DNA of 64,000 nt from Verrucomicrobium sp. BvORR106 (GTDB lineage: Bacteria; Verrucomicrobiota; Verrucomicrobiia; Verrucomicrobiales; Verrucomicrobiaceae). The notes under the pieces were generated by a model, which saw only the letters and a list, made by a program, of their open reading frames with translations, was not told the origin of the DNA and made no database searches. Below are positions 40,203 through 49,302 of this stretch, in pieces; position 1 is the stretch's first letter; every line of letters begins with the position of its first letter. The translations under genes and the position numbers were made by a program. The stretch spans positions 62,001 through 126,000 of the forward strand of contig NZ_BATR01000164.1 in the NCBI RefSeq assembly GCF_000739655.1, written 5' to 3'.

Positions 40203-41306
40203 CTACACCAGCTTCACGTAGTACTTCCCCGGAAGGGGTTTCACCACGCGTTTCATCTCGAGCTTCATGAGCGTCGCGGAGACCGCCGGGCCGGAAAGGG
40301 TGGTGCAGCGTCCGGCGATTTCATTGATATGCGCTTCCCCGGAGCCGATGGCTTCGAACACGGCGGCCTCGTCCAACGCCAGAGTGACGCCAGGTTGCAC
40401 GCTTTCCACCCGTGGCGCTTGAGGCTCCGTCGGGAACAGGGTCATCAAATCATCCAGGACATCCCCACCATCCAGGATGAGCTTGGCCCCCTGTTGAATG
40501 AGCCGGTTACACCCTTGGGATGACGGCCTGTCAATATTGCCCGGCACGGCATAGACCGTCCTCCCCTGCTCCACAGCTTGTTGCGCCGTAATGAGAGAAC
40601 CGCTTCGCCCCGGGGCCTCCACGACGACAATCCCGCAGCTCCAGCCGCTCACGATGCGATTCCGCATGGGGAAAGTCTGCTTGTCCGGCGGGCAGTCCAC
40701 CGGAAACTCGCTGATGACGGCTCCGTTTTCGGCGATCTTCTCTGCCAGCGCTTTATTCTCCGGCGGGTACAGTTTCCCCAAGCCCGAGCCAATCACGGCA
40801 ATGGTTCTTCCCTTGCTGGCCAGCGCTCCTTCATGCGCCGCGGTATCAATGCCTCGAGCGAGGCCGCTGATCACGCTGTAGCCTGCATAAGCCAGCTGGA
40901 ATCCCAGCTTCTTGGCCGTGCTCAAGCCATACTGGGTGGCATGCCGTGACCCCACGATGCCAATGCCATGCTGGTCCCGTGGAAGCAGCGTTCCCTTCAC
41001 GTAGAGCACCAGCGGCGGATCATAGATCTGTTTCAACAGCTTGGGATAGCTCGCGTCATCCTGCGTGAGGACCGTGATCTGTTCTTCGGCAATCCTTCGC
41101 AGCTCCCGGCTCAGATCCACGCGATCTTCCCACCCGGCCACCAGTTGAGCCAGCTCCTCCCCAAAGCCCTCCACCCGCTTGATATCTGATGCCAAAGCGG
41201 ACAACGCCTCCACCGGACCGCCAAACCACTCCACCAATCGCCGCACCCTCACCGGGCCGATTTTGGGCAGAAGATTCAGAACGAGATAGGCTTCGGTACG
41301 GGTCAT
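40203..41306 (-). CDS. dprA: DNA processing protein DprA
   Basis: Loads RecA on incoming single-stranded DNA during natural transformation. 367 residues from ATG 41306. An N-terminal SAM/HhH-like region (LLPKIGPVRVRRLVEWFG) leads into the Rossmann-type DprA core: GIVGSRHATQYG, SGLARGIDTAAHEGAL, IGSGLGKLYPPEN, SGWSCGIVVVEA and GSLITAQQAVEQGR. A C-terminal winged helix (about 300-367) is complete. Convergent with lnt by 9 nt. Confidence 0.95.
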   Translation of the reverse strand: MTRTEAYLVLNLLPKIGPVRVRRLVEWFGGPVEALSALASDIKRVEGFGEELAQLVAGWEDRVDLSRELRRIAEEQITVLTQDDASYPKLLKQIYDPPLVLYVKGTLLPRDQHGIGIVGSRHATQYGLSTAKKLGFQLAYAGYSVISGLARGIDTAAHEGALASKGRTIAVIGSGLGKLYPPENKALAEKIAENGAVISEFPVDCPPDKQTFPMRNRIVSGWSCGIVVVEAPGRSGSLITAQQAVEQGRTVYAVPGNIDRPSSQGCNRLIQQGAKLILDGGDVLDDLMTLFPTEPQAPRVESVQPGVTLALDEAAVFEAIGSGEAHINEIAGRCTTLSGPAVSATLMKLEMKRVVKPLPGKYYVKLV

Positions 41307-41420
41307 GGGAGGACTGAGTGGCAAAGGTCAACGCGAAGAGAAACAACTACTCATTTGTACAGTTGCCCTCGCGTGTGTCAACCACGCGCCGGGGTCCAAT
41401 GTGAACTCTCCGGAGCAAGT

Positions 41421-41434
41421 ACGATTATTATCGT
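41421..41434. promoter_or_regulatory. Dyad 1 upstream of the M56 gene
   Basis: ACGAT-TATT-ATCGT is a perfect 5-4-5 palindrome. Its right edge overlaps TTGACC (41434-41439), a -35-like hexamer pointing to the gene at 41513. It pairs with an equivalent dyad 45 bp downstream. Confidence 0.6.
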
Positions 41435-41465
41435 TGACCAAATCAAACTACCTATGCCATTTTAT

Positions 41466-41479
41466 ACGATAATCATCGT
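41466..41479. promoter_or_regulatory. Dyad 2 upstream of the M56 gene
   Basis: ACGAT-AATC-ATCGT has the same half-sites as dyad 1 (TACGAT/ATCGTA when extended). It overlaps a -10-like TATACG and lies 33 nt before the ATG at 41513. Two identical half-site pairs centred 45 bp apart look like operators for a dimeric winged-helix repressor of the BlaI/MecI kind, but no such repressor gene is adjacent. Confidence 0.6.
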
Positions 41480-41512
41480 ACATCTACCACACATCGGCGA
41501 GCAGCTTGATCT

Positions 41513-44500
41513 ATGGACTCGATCATCAACTCCCCCTGGCTCAATCATCTTGGGATGGGCTTGCTCCATTCCCTATGGCAGGGGTTGGTCATTCTAGCTG
41601 TCACGGCCACCATTTTGGCACTGTGCCGACGACGTTCCCCAGAAGTACGTCATCGGATCTGCCTGGCAGCAATCGCGTCGTTGACGCTTTGTGTACCAAC
41701 AACCGTAGCTTGGTTGGGCCGAGCTACTGCCACGTCTTACGCCCTCCAGAACCGCTCTGAGGCTCCTGCAATCGCTCCCACAACGATGTCGCCGGGAACT
41801 CTATCCACCCCACGCGTAAATAGAGAGACCTCGTTGTCCTCGCCATTTTCCAACGAGCTTCAGCCTCTCTCAATCTCACAGTGGCGATTCAACTGGACCG
41901 CAATCATTGCTCTGGGATGGGTGCTGGGCATCGTACTGCTCACCCTGCGATTGTTGGTTGGGCACCGGATTTTCGCTCGCATCAGATTGGGAGCCTCCTC
42001 GTGGGTCGCGCCGCCCCACGTTGGCCAACTTCTGACCAGAATCGGTCTGCACACTGCCAAGATCCTGGCTTCCCCCGCTGTGCCTGTGCCCCTGGTCGTT
42101 GGCTGGATTCGTCCAGTGGTTCTGCTTCCAGCACAGCTGATTGGCAGGATGGACCAAGAGTCATTGCAGACGCTGCTACTGCATGAACTGGCCCATCTCA
42201 AACGACGGGATCCGGTGATCAATCTGGCACTCACAGCCATCGAAACTCTGCTTTTCTTCAACCCTGCGGCTAGAGAGTTGGTCCGCCGGGTCAGATGGGA
42301 GGCTGAACTCGCCTGCGATGACTTTGTCATTTCCATAAACCCAGATCGTCAGGTCTATGCCAGGGCATTGGCTCAACTGGAAACGTTCCGGGATGAGAGA
42401 CTTGCATTGGCTGCCACAGGACACCATCACCTGCTGACGCGGCTGCAAAGGATTCTCCGTATGCCAGCCGATTCTAGCCCGAAAGGTCTGTGCCCCCTCT
42501 GGCATCCGGGTCTGATGATCCATGCGGTGACAGCTTTGTCGCTAGTCTTCGCCGTTATCGCCGTGCCTCGCGCGGCCCGCGCGATGACCGATGAGGAGAG
42601 GATTGCCTCAATCTCTGCCATCGAGATCAATCTACCAAAAGAGTCCGAGGTCCAATGGACGGCTCGAGCACAACTGGTTGACGACGCCGGAGTAACCTTG
42701 CCTGTGGTGAACACGAAGATCGCAACGTTTTCTATTGGAATATCAGACGCATTCGAGACGGATGTGTCGTCGAGCTTCAATGTCCGCGGGCGAGGGCAGT
42801 GGGCACAAGTCTCCGCCTGGCCTGATGGGTACGCTCCGGTCACTACGAGGATACCCTCGCCTGACCTTGCATCCGGCGCAGCCTCCCATCAGGTAAGAAT
42901 CGAAAAAGGATTCCCAGCAGAACTAATGATCGTCAACGAGGCTGGCGAACCAATCCCTGGCGCGATGGTTACTGTGGATTCTCCGGCACCCGAAAGAAGC
43001 GCCTTCCAACTTCGATCTCCGTTTGAATCTCAATCAGACGGCCGAATTCGTTTCGGCAATGTTGCAGCTTCGTCCCGTGTCACGTTGGAAGCGTTTGCCC
43101 ACGGTTATGAATGGACCCTTTTTGGGGGCATACGTTTTTTACCGGGCGAAGTGAGAACTCTTACTTTGAAGCGGGCCACTCCAATCACGCTGAAGGTGCT
43201 CGACCAGGAGACTGGGAACCCCGTCGAAGGCGCCTGGGCGTTCTGCGGAGGTCGCGGCTGGGGAAACTCCTTCAATAGCTGGTCTGATCAACAGCCCCCG
43301 CTCGCTTCGACTGCTTCAGACAGAGAAGGCCGCCTGGACTTGGATGTTTGTCATCCGTCCAGTCTGTATGGTGTGATCGTAAAGGCGCCTGGATATGCCC
43401 CCAAGGCATTGCTCATCCCGCAAGGTGGGGCCAGTCGCCCCAACCATCTGCAAGTCCATCTCACGAGAGGGCTGAAATTTGACGCAACGATCCACGACCC
43501 GCTTGGCATCCTCCCTGAACTCGCAGCAGGTGTGAAGTTCTCAGCGATTTCCACGCTCGATCTCCCGAAGCTAAACGATTGGCAACTGAGTGTGGGTTGG
43601 AGATCAGTCATCCCAATGGACCGCGGGCTCAGAAACCAACGAGTCGCCCTAGGAGAACTTTCTCCAGGCCCCTTGGAAGTAGTTTTGGGACGAGGACTCA
43701 CCTGGAAAAGAGACCTCGCTCATTCGCTGAGCGACCTGGATCTGTACATCACTCGATCAGGAATCACCGAAACGCCGCCGGCCAACTTCGCCGAAGAACA
43801 AAGAGAGACCCGCAAGATCATCTTTAATCTGGTCCCTCCGAGAGGCGGTCCTCGGGCTTCAGGTGAAGTCGAATTCAACGTCCAAGCCAAACCGAAATTT
43901 GTCAGGGTGGAGAACAACTCCCTGCAATTCGACGCGCCTCTGGGAGCCCAGGTATCAACCGAGGGGCATGGGCTGAAAGGCTACACCCTGTTCGGAAGGT
44001 TTCCTTTCTTCGTGGTCACTGCAGGCGCATCCCCTGTCATACACGAACTGGCCTTGATTCCAGCAGGAAGTGTTATCGCAAAGCTGGAACTCCCCGAACG
44101 TCTTGGCAATGTCTCAGGTGATGTTCTGGACGATAGCGAGCTTGGCACCTCAAGACCTCCCATAGCCCCAAGGATCGAATTCTTGAAGGATTCTCAAACT
44201 ATCTACATCTCGAACCTTCCATTTGGCAACAAATACCGGTTGATGCTCAACGCTCGCTCGCTCTTCATCGAAAGCTCATTGTTTGCAATCGATGAAGAGA
44301 ATCCAATTCGTGAGTTCATCTTCACCGTCCGTCCGAGCCCACCCATCCAAGTCACTATACTGGAGCCGGACGGTTCACCTTGCCGCAACAAACCAGTCAG
44401 GTTGCGGTACACGAGCCACCTTTACACAAGTAACAAGGCAGAACAATTCACCGACGGAGATGGGAGGTTGACCATTGAGAGCCTCAATTTTGAGGCTCCC

Positions 44501-44608
44501 GGAAAACACCATCTCACGCTCCCCGCTGAACCAGGAATCCAAGCATTCGAAGCGTATCTTGTGCCCGACGCCCCCTTGCAGCAATTTCAACGGCAGATCG
44601 CGAACTAA
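41513..44608 (+). CDS. BlaR1-like M56-family membrane metalloprotease with large beta-domain sensor
   Basis: 1031 residues. Membrane helices at about 10-35, 45-65, 120-150 and 330-355 frame an M56 peptidase: the zinc motif HELAH lies at 224-228, with the downstream acidic WEAELACDD near 262-270. BlaR1 proteins cleave a BlaI-type repressor after sensing a ligand outside. Here the outer part (about 370-1031) contains carboxypeptidase-regulatory/Ig-like beta units (EAGEPIPGAMVTV, GNPVEGAWAFC, DGSPCRNKPVRLRY) and no penicillin-binding SxxK/KTG domain, so the signal is not evidently a beta-lactam. No blaI gene is adjacent. Its stop overlaps that of aroB. Confidence 0.85.
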   Translation: MDSIINSPWLNHLGMGLLHSLWQGLVILAVTATILALCRRRSPEVRHRICLAAIASLTLCVPTTVAWLGRATATSYALQNRSEAPAIAPTTMSPGTLSTPRVNRETSLSSPFSNELQPLSISQWRFNWTAIIALGWVLGIVLLTLRLLVGHRIFARIRLGASSWVAPPHVGQLLTRIGLHTAKILASPAVPVPLVVGWIRPVVLLPAQLIGRMDQESLQTLLLHELAHLKRRDPVINLALTAIETLLFFNPAARELVRRVRWEAELACDDFVISINPDRQVYARALAQLETFRDERLALAATGHHHLLTRLQRILRMPADSSPKGLCPLWHPGLMIHAVTALSLVFAVIAVPRAARAMTDEERIASISAIEINLPKESEVQWTARAQLVDDAGVTLPVVNTKIATFSIGISDAFETDVSSSFNVRGRGQWAQVSAWPDGYAPVTTRIPSPDLASGAASHQVRIEKGFPAELMIVNEAGEPIPGAMVTVDSPAPERSAFQLRSPFESQSDGRIRFGNVAASSRVTLEAFAHGYEWTLFGGIRFLPGEVRTLTLKRATPITLKVLDQETGNPVEGAWAFCGGRGWGNSFNSWSDQQPPLASTASDREGRLDLDVCHPSSLYGVIVKAPGYAPKALLIPQGGASRPNHLQVHLTRGLKFDATIHDPLGILPELAAGVKFSAISTLDLPKLNDWQLSVGWRSVIPMDRGLRNQRVALGELSPGPLEVVLGRGLTWKRDLAHSLSDLDLYITRSGITETPPANFAEEQRETRKIIFNLVPPRGGPRASGEVEFNVQAKPKFVRVENNSLQFDAPLGAQVSTEGHGLKGYTLFGRFPFFVVTAGASPVIHELALIPAGSVIAKLELPERLGNVSGDVLDDSELGTSRPPIAPRIEFLKDSQTIYISNLPFGNKYRLMLNARSLFIESSLFAIDEENPIREFIFTVRPSPPIQVTILEPDGSPCRNKPVRLRYTSHLYTSNKAEQFTDGDGRLTIESLNFEAPGKHHLTLPAEPGIQAFEAYLVPDAPLQQFQRQIAN

Positions 44609-45690
44609 AACCGCAGCCCTTTGATCGCGCTGATGATGTGCGCTTCGGTGACGTGCTTGCTCACGTACGCATCTCCCAGGGCACGAAGCAGCACGAACCG
44701 GATGCTGCCTTCGCTGAACTTCTTGTCGTGCTTCATGTAGTCCAGAATCGTCTCCGTCGTCATCCCTTCTGGCAGCCGGGTGGGCAGTTGGAAAAGCTTC
44801 ACCATGTTGGCGATCTTGGCGCGCCCCACGGGAGGCAGACCCGCGAGTTGAGCGGACAAGGACGCGGCAGCGATCATGCCCAGGCTGATGGCCTCGCCGT
44901 GGAGCAACTGGCCATAACCAGCGCTGGCCTCAATGGCATGGCCGATGGTGTGCCCAAAGTTGAGCAGAGCGCGCTCGCCCGTGAGCTCATGTTCATCGGC
45001 TTCCACGATGCGGGCTTTGATCGCCACATTGCGGTGGATCAACGCTGCCAGGTCGCCTTTGCCCTCTGCCACCTCGGCGATGGCTTCAAACATGAAGGCA
45101 TCCCGGATCGCAGCGTGTTTGATGATCTCTGCGAACCCCTCGCGATACTCCCGTTCTGGGAGGCTGGAGAGGGTGTCCACATCCGCCAGCACCAGGCTGG
45201 GCTGATAGAACGTGCCGAGCAGGTTCTTGCCCTCAGGGGTGTTCACCCCCGTCTTGCCACCTACACTGCTGTCCACTTGGGAGAGTACCGTGGTGGGCAC
45301 CTGGATAAAGGGAATGCCGCGCAGGAAGATCGAGGCGGCAAACCCTGCCAAATCCCCGATCACGCCCCCGCCCAATGCGACGAGAAAGGACTTCCGGTCC
45401 AAACCTGCCTTCAGCATCTCACGGCAAACGTCTTCCACCACCGCCATGGCCTTGCTAGGCTCTCCCGCGGGCACCGCCACCAGTGTGGCCGTGATCCCAC
45501 TCTGTTCGAGGCTGTCGATCACCGTCTGGCCGTAAAGCGGCTCGACGTTGGTGTCCGTCACCACCACACACTTTTTCCGGCCCAGAAGCTCGGTCGCGTA
45601 GGTACCAACATGCGGGAGCAAGCCGCTCCCCACATAGACATCGTAGCTACGTTCGGCGAGATTGACGCGGACAGAGAGGCAGTCGGACAT
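44605..45690 (-). CDS. aroB: 3-dehydroquinate synthase
   Basis: Second step of the shikimate pathway, NAD- and zinc-dependent. 361 residues from ATG 45690, which has GGGAG just upstream; ATG 45705 would add five. Motifs are ALGGGVIGDLAGFAAS, FIQVPTTVLSQVDSSVGGKTGVN, AEIIKHAAIRD and NFGHTIGHAIEA, with zinc and substrate ligands present. Convergent with the M56 gene, the stop codons sharing CTAA. Confidence 0.97.
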   Translation of the reverse strand: MSDCLSVRVNLAERSYDVYVGSGLLPHVGTYATELLGRKKCVVVTDTNVEPLYGQTVIDSLEQSGITATLVAVPAGEPSKAMAVVEDVCREMLKAGLDRKSFLVALGGGVIGDLAGFAASIFLRGIPFIQVPTTVLSQVDSSVGGKTGVNTPEGKNLLGTFYQPSLVLADVDTLSSLPEREYREGFAEIIKHAAIRDAFMFEAIAEVAEGKGDLAALIHRNVAIKARIVEADEHELTGERALLNFGHTIGHAIEASAGYGQLLHGEAISLGMIAAASLSAQLAGLPPVGRAKIANMVKLFQLPTRLPEGMTTETILDYMKHDKKFSEGSIRFVLLRALGDAYVSKHVTEAHIISAIKGLRF

Positions 45691-45750
45691 GGAACTCCCA
45701 GTCATGAACGGGGAGGAGCCGAGCGCAAGCGGGTTTTAGCACCACCTCCC

Positions 45751-47334
45751 TCACTTCTTGGCTTTGTCCTCGAGTGAGTCCCAACCCCAAGGATTCTCCA
45801 CCATCCAGGTGAGTGCCTGCCGCATTTCGGGATCTTCCAAGCCAGAGATCCACTTCCGCATCTCATCTGGCTTCCACATGGCCCAAAATCGCATTCCGCA
45901 GAAGGTCCGATCCAAGGCACCATCGTCGTCTGAGTCAAAGCTCTTCCCGGAGAATACCTTGATCAGCATGGAACGAGGATACTGTTCCATCAAGGCAGGG
46001 CTCGTGATGAACGAATAAGCGTAGCGAGCCGCCTCTCCGACATCAATCTGCAGCCAGCGCTCCATTTCCAGGATGCCCCAACCGTCGGGAAAATGAACCA
46101 GCCCTTGTCCTGAATGAGCGGTCTGCCACTTGCCAATATCGAAATCACGCAAGGCTCCCAGTCCCCAATGACTCCGGTTAAAAGCTCCACCGGTGGGATA
46201 TGCCGCATGCCAGAGAACTTCTGAGAGTGGGTCGGGGCTTGCCTGCATCGCACCCGCCTTCAATGCCTCAACGGGACTTACCTCAGCCCAACATCCATAG
46301 AGGGCAGGCAAATATCCACCCCTATCCGCCTCCGCCAGCCATGCTTTCCTCGACTCCCCGGTCACATGCTCAAGAAGGATACCGCGTGCGGCCATGCCCG
46401 TTTCGCTGAACTTCGGGTTCTCACGTTTCGCCCAAGCCTCCATGGAGGCTCTATCCAGTTGCGCCCAAAGCGATAGGAACGACAACGTGATGGTCTGTTG
46501 TTCCGCATCGACCGTGCCGCCGTTCTCCTCCTTGCGAGCCATGTCGAGGGCCAAGTCGACAAGCTTCGAAGCAAACTCAGGCTTCACACTGAGGCAACGA
46601 ACCATGCTAACCCGCCTCTCAGGACCTTCAGGTAGCAAGCTCGCAAAATGGTTCAGATTCCAATCCCCACTACTCCTGAGAATCTTGACCAGCCCACTGC
46701 CGTCAATAGAGACATCATCCCCCGATGGTCCATCAGGCAGACGCGAAGGAGGCAACGATCCCGTGCGATCGACATATGCTGCGGCATACTCCTTCAAAAT
46801 ACGGATCTTTTCATCCTTCCGCAGTTCCGAGGCTTCTATGGCTGGGCCAATCGCCGCGACATCTTCTGGCATGATCCAGAACGAAGACTTCTGGAATGCC
46901 GCTGGGTTGGCTGCAGTCACCTTGCCCCAGTCCCAGCGGGCGAGATCCAGAAGGTTGTGAGAAATAGTCACGTCCAGCAGCTCTCTTGCTTTGCGCCATG
47001 CACCTTCGGGATCGCGCTCGGCCCATACTCTCAGGAAAAATGACGTGAGCGCGCGAGGATGCTGTGTGCCTTCGTATACCACGCTCAATCGAAATGCTGA
47101 CTCGAGATTCGCCACAGGGATCTCGCGAAGGTATTCGGCCAACATGGGATACCGGACCGTCACATCAGGTTCTTGGAACAGAACCTTCAGCACATCTGGC
47201 ATGGATAGCCTTTCATCGTCCCATGGCACTCGCGTCAATGGAGCAAAATCTGAAGGCTTCCAGTCCAGTCGCTGGGCTGAGGCTGGCAGAATCGCCATCA
47301 GCGAGATCATGATCATCAACAGCCGCGCTTTCAT
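45751..47334 (-). CDS. Exported protein of unknown family, tandem paralog A
   Basis: 527 residues with a signal peptide (1-20, ending LPASAQ). The mature protein begins RLDWKPSDFAPLT and is mostly helical. It shares its whole length with the adjacent paralog at 47360: N-terminal QRLDWK and SMPDVL, EPDxxVRYPxLAEY, and a near-identical C-terminus FWAMWKPDEMRKWISGLEDPEM with ALTWMVENPWG. No domain or catalytic motif recognised. It follows the paralog by 25 nt in a likely operon. Confidence 0.8.
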   Translation of the reverse strand: MKARLLMIMISLMAILPASAQRLDWKPSDFAPLTRVPWDDERLSMPDVLKVLFQEPDVTVRYPMLAEYLREIPVANLESAFRLSVVYEGTQHPRALTSFFLRVWAERDPEGAWRKARELLDVTISHNLLDLARWDWGKVTAANPAAFQKSSFWIMPEDVAAIGPAIEASELRKDEKIRILKEYAAAYVDRTGSLPPSRLPDGPSGDDVSIDGSGLVKILRSSGDWNLNHFASLLPEGPERRVSMVRCLSVKPEFASKLVDLALDMARKEENGGTVDAEQQTITLSFLSLWAQLDRASMEAWAKRENPKFSETGMAARGILLEHVTGESRKAWLAEADRGGYLPALYGCWAEVSPVEALKAGAMQASPDPLSEVLWHAAYPTGGAFNRSHWGLGALRDFDIGKWQTAHSGQGLVHFPDGWGILEMERWLQIDVGEAARYAYSFITSPALMEQYPRSMLIKVFSGKSFDSDDDGALDRTFCGMRFWAMWKPDEMRKWISGLEDPEMRQALTWMVENPWGWDSLEDKAKK

Positions 47335-47359: not shown

Positions 47360-48898
47360 TCAGCGACCACTTGCCCGCTTCCCCCACGGATTCTCCAGGG
47401 TCCAAGTTAGGGCTTTCTGCATTTCAGGATCCTCCAATCCGGCAATCCAATTCCGCATCTCATCCGGCTTCCACATGGCCCAGAAGCGGAGCGCGCACAG
47501 GGTCCGGTCAATCATGTCGGAGTCTGAAGCCGCGTCATCGTCCCCCTTCAGCAATCTGATCAGGTCCCCTCTCGATATGGCCTTGGAGTCCGGAAACCGA
47601 GTGAGATACTCAAAACCATATCGAGCCGCCTCCCCCGCATCGACCTCCAACCACTGCTCCATCTCGGTGTAACCCCAATGCCAGACAACCGATTGCACTG
47701 CCTCTTCTGACATGTCCGGGAGAACACGACGCAAATCATAACCCCGCACTGCTTCCAAACCCGGATGACTTCGATTGTAAGATGAGGCCCCTGGATAGAC
47801 GGCCTCATTTGCCACGCCACACAAGATGTCGGGATCGCCATATTTGCCTGCGGCTTCCAGCGCTTGCAAGGAGGTCACACGGCTCCATGCCTCCAGCAAC
47901 TCCACAAGCGAGGATGGCGGATTCTCCGCGACTCGCGAGGCCGCATCAATCCAGCGTTTCCGAACATTCGCTTCAACGCTGCTCATCAGAATTCCCTGAG
48001 CCGTTCTCCTGACCGTGTCGCTCGTGAGGCGGGGTGCATCGATCCACTCGAGCATTCCAGATCGATCCAACTTAGACCAGAGCAGCAGATGACAATGCAA
48101 GTCACTGTCGATGGGCAAAAGCTCAATCCATTCCTCAGCAGCAGCAGGCTGCATAGCCATCAGTCTTGCCACCCCAGCGCGGATCGCCGCCGACTTGCGA
48201 TGTGCTTCATCTACGGCCTGCAGACGCGTCTTCAGATTCTCCGCCGCAAGCTCGAGCACCTGATTCAATTCCAAGTCTCGTGCGGAATAGCCTGAAGCAG
48301 GTGAATTGGGCAATGTCCCCGCCTTGTCGATGAAGAGATTCGCGTAGTCTCTCATCAACTGCTTACGAAGCTCGCCAGGCCGTCCTGGATCCGCCAACGC
48401 AGGCCCCAATCCCCCTAGGGATGAGACGTTCAACCAGTATGAAGATGCCCGGAACGCATTGAGGTTCACCACTCGCAAGGGACGATTATCCCACCTGTCG
48501 AGGTCCAATGGATGTCCTTCCAACACCACACACTCCATCAATTCCTTTGTCTTGGCCAAAGCCTGTTCAGGCTCACGCGCAGCCCACAATGGTAACAGAA
48601 GCCCCACCAGATCATTTGGGCGCTGAGTGCCTTCCAACTTCACACAGAGCTCAAATGCTGCCTCCAATTCCGACCCTGGCAGATGCTTGCGAAAATACTC
48701 AGCCAGCACGGGATACCGCACTTCGGGATCGGGCTCCTTGAAAATCTTCTCCAGGACATCGGGCATCGACTGATCGTGCTCCCACCAAGGCAATGACGTG
48801 AGGGGCAAAAACTCGTCAGCCTTCCAGTCCAGCCGCTGGGCCACTGAGACACTGGCGAAGCAAAACAACACAGAGAGGCAGACAAACGGCAACTTCAT
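47360..48898 (-). CDS. Exported protein of unknown family, tandem paralog B
   Basis: 512 residues from ATG 48898, giving a signal peptide (MKLPFVCLSVLFCFASVSVAQ); the longer open frame adds an unlikely basic leader. Helical, similar end to end to paralog A. The shared C-terminal signature reads RFWAMWKPDEMRNWIAGLED and ENPWG, and WLEVDAGEAARYG recurs upstream of it in both. Divergence in the centre suggests an old duplication. Function unknown. Confidence 0.8.
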   Translation of the reverse strand: MKLPFVCLSVLFCFASVSVAQRLDWKADEFLPLTSLPWWEHDQSMPDVLEKIFKEPDPEVRYPVLAEYFRKHLPGSELEAAFELCVKLEGTQRPNDLVGLLLPLWAAREPEQALAKTKELMECVVLEGHPLDLDRWDNRPLRVVNLNAFRASSYWLNVSSLGGLGPALADPGRPGELRKQLMRDYANLFIDKAGTLPNSPASGYSARDLELNQVLELAAENLKTRLQAVDEAHRKSAAIRAGVARLMAMQPAAAEEWIELLPIDSDLHCHLLLWSKLDRSGMLEWIDAPRLTSDTVRRTAQGILMSSVEANVRKRWIDAASRVAENPPSSLVELLEAWSRVTSLQALEAAGKYGDPDILCGVANEAVYPGASSYNRSHPGLEAVRGYDLRRVLPDMSEEAVQSVVWHWGYTEMEQWLEVDAGEAARYGFEYLTRFPDSKAISRGDLIRLLKGDDDAASDSDMIDRTLCALRFWAMWKPDEMRNWIAGLEDPEMQKALTWTLENPWGKRASGR

Positions 48899-49302
48899 TA
48901 GGAGGTGCCTTGGAAGGTACAGGCAACCGCCTTTCCCGTTCAAGAAGCTTCTGAGCCATCCTCTCCGTTTCACCATTGGCCCTGCGTTATCCCGGGTCCA
49001 ACTAAGGGGGAACTCATCTCGAGATCATCTCCAAGACGGCGACAGGAGACTTTTTCGAGCAAGCCTCCAGCCAAGCCCTTCCTCGAAGAGGATGCGGCTA
49101 CAAGCCCAACGTTGGCGAGCTTCCAGCGAGTCTACGTTGGGTGCATGAATGCAGTTGCTTACTCCGAAGGAGTTGCGGCGGTCTGCGCCACGTGATGTGC
49201 GCAGTGTTCAATGGCATTCAAGGTAGAAACTTCAGCGCAGTCTCCCTCAGCTCATCACCACTCGTCTGATCTTCCACTGTCCCCTCTCTTCTAGCAGGCC
49301 AG
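48899..49302. other. Gene-free stretch upstream of paralog B
   Basis: About 400 nt with no ORF I can support on either strand and no tRNA-like fold or terminator. AGGAGGT at 48900 is on the plus strand and cannot serve the minus-strand gene. The promoter of paralogs A and B is expected here but no clear hexamers were found. The segment 49130-49200 has short open frames only. Confidence 0.4.

Follow-up and report, generated by a model that had tools for sequence, protein, structure and literature searches.

Which repressor governs a gene for a BlaR1-like protease when no repressor gene lies beside it? The question is raised by a locus in the window, a 64,000-nt stretch of the Verrucomicrobium sp. 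BvORR106 genome, where an orphan M56 (BlaR1-like) membrane metalloprotease of 1031 aa is encoded on the forward strand at 41513-44608 (PF05569, 1.5e-28; PF13620, 3.4e-9). No blaI or mecI gene adjoins it, and the lack of an adjacent BlaI gene had been pointed out in an earlier note on this DNA; its neighbours are the divergent dprA (40203-41324, reverse strand; PF02481, 5.5e-79), which is placed outside the regulon discussed here, and the convergent aroB (44605-45705, reverse strand; PF01761, 1.1e-46). On the dprA side, a conserved block at 41346-41385 reads on the reverse strand as a putative dprA promoter, with TTGACA and TACAAA-like hexamers. Between aroB and miaA there are two tandem, apparently paralogous genes on the reverse strand (45751-47334 and 47360-48976, 527 and 538 aa), neither with an NCBIfam match and the first also without a Pfam match. 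This pair is missing at the same locus in G003, a genome of the same genus, and a single copy is present in Verrucomicrobium sp. BvORR034 (L033, 8258-9847).

The zinc site of the orphan protein, HELAH...EAELACDD, is intact and follows the M56 pattern HEXXH...E, and a structure match to BlaR1 (8exs) was obtained; the single-sequence AlphaFold model had a mean pLDDT of 34.8. The carboxypeptidase-regulatory-like domain (PF13620) is situated in the C-terminal part. No penicillin-binding sensor domain was found among the Pfam matches, and the score against NCBIfam blaR1_generic was 62.5 bits, below the cut-off of 400. Since the M56 protein has no recognised penicillin-binding sensor, beta-lactams need not be its signal. 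Comparison with its orthologue gave a dN/dS of 0.22, and purifying selection acts on the gene.

Direct inspection of the sequence upstream of the M56 gene confirmed two perfect ACGAT-N4-ATCGT palindromes, with the 5-nt half-sites, 4-nt spacers and 45-bp distance that had been described: dyad 1, ACGATTATTATCGT, at 41421-41434 and dyad 2, ACGATAATCATCGT, at 41466-41479, the latter ending 33 bp before the ATG. When extended by one base on either side, dyad 2 (TACGAT-AATC-ATCGTA, 41465-41480) becomes a perfect 16-bp dyad, TACGATAATCATCGTA, with TACGATTATTATCGTT as the corresponding form of dyad 1 (TACGAT-TATT-ATCGTT, 41420-41435). Two inverted-repeat sites at a promoter are what is expected of a BlaI/MecI-type operator. 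The genome-wide scans, run by pattern over 8.69 Mb, gave a divided answer. Single ACGAT-N4-ATCGT sites occurred 8 times, where our own arithmetic from the 10 fixed bases predicts about 8, and the six sites other than the window's stand alone within open reading frames. A regulon defined by single sites was therefore rejected, and because its frequency is that of chance, the single motif is uninformative as a genome scan. Twin ACGA-N6-TCGT dyads 18-42 bp apart, on the other hand, were found in just two places in the whole genome, the window and, on contig C110, a blaI-M56 operon promoter, with none in the reversed control; unlike single dyads, the twin dyads are not a product of chance. The suspicion that the motif might be mere background, on which the earlier note had made its reading depend, thus holds for singles and fails for pairs, and the accompanying absence of BlaI from the genome is contradicted by eight BlaI-family genes. 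A plasmid search gave no near match.

Besides its eight BlaI genes the genome encodes nine M56 genes, of which eight lie beside a BlaI gene, as judged by contig and position; the M56 gene of the window is the only unpaired one. The C110 operon consists of two genes only, a blaI (PF03965, 67.7 bits) and an M56 gene, and is followed by a convergent gene. Its M56 protein is the closest full-length paralogue of the orphan (34% identity over ~1000 aa, E 7e-140) and has the same domain order, the second domain being there just under the cut-off. The genome therewith encodes a BlaI whose own operator closely matches that of the orphan both in sequence and in layout. A point against the assignment is that the C110 operator differs from that of the window within the dyads by an ACGAC at one half-site, and in spacing by one base pair (44 vs 45). 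We also noted that a twin-dyad operator seems to lie upstream of every one of the eight BlaI paralogues (L009-L016), with its own half-site (TGTTGA..TCAACA at C167, GCTAA..TTAGC at C177) and a spacing of its own, by eye ~23 to 45 bp.

For comparison we used two further genomes of the same genus (G001 and G003) and two from another genus of the same family (G057 and G067). All four have a paired site before the orthologous blaI-M56 operon, and G001 has one also before an orthologous orphan M56 gene, which matches the orphan of BvORR034. Alignment of seven operators from five genomes revealed the invariant positions TACGA..AT.ATCGTTGAC and TACGA..A...TCGTA. The window's TACGATTATTATCGTTGAC, comprising dyad 1 and the adjoining TTGAC, recurs without a mismatch (19/19 bases) at the start of the blaI operators in G057 and G067. 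On the protein side, the recognition-helix segment of BlaI, GSYTTVLKQFQVMHEKGL, aligned with the MecI and BlaI helix-turn-helix region, is identical in the five orthologues and different in the seven other paralogues of the genome. When a matrix was derived from the five blaI operators only, with the window left out, it ranked the window dyads first and second in the 64 kb, at 22.4 and 20.5 bits, the third site scoring 9.0. In another family of the order (genera g30 and g31; L044-L050 and L052), paired ACGACA-N2-TGTCGT dyads with a spacing of ~33 bp were seen in several genomes, and these are probably other BlaI operators.

These data favour the view that the twin dyads are a BlaI-family operator and that the orphan M56 gene is repressed in trans by the C110 BlaI, a prediction to which we assign a probability of roughly 0.88. 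They also support, at the level of sequence, two suggestions of the earlier note, that the site is of BlaI/MecI type and that a repressor encoded elsewhere may join distant genes, as the twin operator recurs only once, before blaI-M56 on C110. BlaI-type operators resemble each other, and the site could instead belong to another paralogue, such as that of C185 (ACTACATTTGTAGT / ACGACAAATGTAGT), or be bound by several BlaI proteins. The operators of the other seven paralogues reached at most 12.5 bits with the C110-type matrix, a value given by the best C185 site, and thereby stay well apart from the 20.5-22.4 bits of the window dyads. The C185 dyads are moreover 23 bp apart as compared to 45 in the window, the recognition helices differ between paralogues, and operator and M56 paralogy both indicate C110, which makes control by another BlaI very improbable.

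The locus may also carry traces of its origin. In G003, which has no orphan, dprA and aroB are directly adjacent, 222 bp apart, with no such dyad between them. In G057 (C1:2021777-2026868) and G067 (C8:150181-155260) it is the blaI-M56 operon that adjoins dprA, on the other side of that gene, and this suggests that a copy of the operon, near its old place, may have lost blaI, kept the operator and given rise to the orphan. Identity among the three M56 groups is much the same throughout (30-34%), and a tree of the M56 paralogues is compatible with a split of the orphan either before or after that of the two genera. An operator left behind in this way might be a functionless relic, and the layout is consistent with loss of blaI from a duplicated operon, as are the paralogy between the orphan and the operon's M56 and the position of the sister-genus operon beside dprA. 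However, the dyads are identical in BvORR034 (28/28 bases, vs 131/160 in the rest of the intergenic region; hypergeometric P = 0.006), and despite a divergence of the coding sequences to ~31% identity they continue to match the operators of another genus. The matching BlaI is, furthermore, still encoded in both orphan-bearing genomes. With 85% identity across the entire intergenic region, the BvORR034 footprint carries modest weight by itself, but set against these observations together a mere relic is very improbable.

The comparison of operators also clarified the promoter. TTGAC directly follows dyad 1 in 7/7 operators, and in the window it belongs to the -35 hexamer TTGACC (41434-41439), whose upstream edge is overlapped by dyad 1. 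Among blaI operators, those of the window's genus (g1) and of G067 have CATCAT 17 bp further on, and in the orphan promoters CATTTT follows after 18 bp, which in the window gives a probable -10 hexamer at 41458-41463. The earlier note had let the dyads overlap both hexamers, and had doubted the promoter for its long -35/-10 spacing. The overlap of dyad 1 with the -35 stands; a -10 inside dyad 2 is probably wrong, and the long-spacing promoter was rejected since in the alignment the conserved -10 falls immediately before dyad 2, at a normal distance from the -35. The doubt disappears with it, as the paralogous operators point to TTGACC, 18 bp and CATTTT, so that the transcription start would fall in dyad 2. 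A strict, simple sigma-70 scan found no promoter at the window site and matched neither placement of the -10. That the palindromes instead serve a dimeric regulator outside the BlaI family, or are a chance or RNA-level feature, would agree with the chance frequency of single sites, but is extremely improbable given that within this genome only blaI-M56-type promoters have the pair and that the -35 holds the same place across operators.

Under repression in trans by the C110 BlaI, one dimer of this protein would bind dyad 1, covering the upstream edge of the -35, and a second would bind dyad 2, covering the expected transcription start; the orphan M56 gene would be shut off, as would the blaI-M56 operon itself via the near-identical operator. 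Activation of either M56 protease at the membrane would then lead to cleavage of the C110 BlaI, on the model of S. aureus, where BlaR1 cuts BlaI directly (PMC9834060), and both promoters would open together. Binding, repression and cleavage by this BlaI/M56 set, and the inducing signal, are here inferred. S. aureus BlaI is cut between Asn and Phe; in our alignment the C110 BlaI has Gly-Ala at this position, and direct cleavage at the same bond is therefore not assured.

How far such control would extend was assessed by scanning for the full layout, dyad-TTGAC-dyad, tolerating at most 3 mismatches at either of two spacings. The scan recovered the blaI operon and the orphan in both the window's genome and G001, and the blaI operon alone in G003 and G057; the extra matches, one with 3 mismatches each in the window's genome and G057, were background-like. 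The predicted regulon visible in the genome thus most likely consists of three genes, the orphan M56 at one locus and blaI with its partner M56 at the other. Further targets with a single or more degenerate site may exist. We saw no resistance or cell-wall gene attached to the regulon loci. Possibly, though this is a doubtful proposal, the arrangement is a circuit of two sensors and one repressor, in which divergent M56 proteins with different outer domains, encoded at separate loci, report different envelope signals to one BlaI; the regulon would then be the repressor and two proteases, with the proteases themselves as output.

A precedent for such a regulon is known. In C. thermocellum, BlaI_0696 regulates a small set of loci, each with two inverted repeats (four protomers); among them are the operon of the repressor itself, with BlaR1-like genes, and targets elsewhere (PMC8457756). 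The predicted system resembles it in having two inverted-repeat sites per target promoter and a small regulon that includes its own operon. The dyad sequence differs, and whereas two BlaR1 proteins are described with the BlaI_0696 operon itself, the second M56 gene here lies apart from the operon, and beyond it no extra target was found; this unlinked second M56 appears to be the special feature of the present case. M. tuberculosis BlaI (Rv1846c) reportedly has a genome-wide regulon of unlinked targets, in work attributed to Sala et al. in 2009; judged by the title of that work, the unlinked targets are alike and the content of the regulon is different. With BlaI/BlaR1 and MecI/MecR1 of S. aureus (PMC9834060; 1sd4, 1xsd, 1okr, 8exs) the system shares a BlaI-family repressor, an M56 protease with HEXXH...E and operators at the promoter, and we count it as a further likeness that S. 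aureus BlaI also acts on the separate mecA promoter. It departs from S. aureus in the M56 protein, whose C-terminal part is long and bears a carboxypeptidase-regulatory-like domain but no recognised penicillin-binding sensor, and in the regulon, where no beta-lactamase or PBP gene was seen. Our literature search found no paper on BlaI/BlaR1 in Verrucomicrobia or on BlaI in Planctomycetes.

Taken together, the analysis raises the question of which signal and which role a BlaI-M56 system would have that includes neither a beta-lactam sensor nor an evident resistance gene. Using the sequence alone, it assigns an orphan sensor-protease gene to a predicted regulator, and it offers a small, cleanly testable regulon in Verrucomicrobia.
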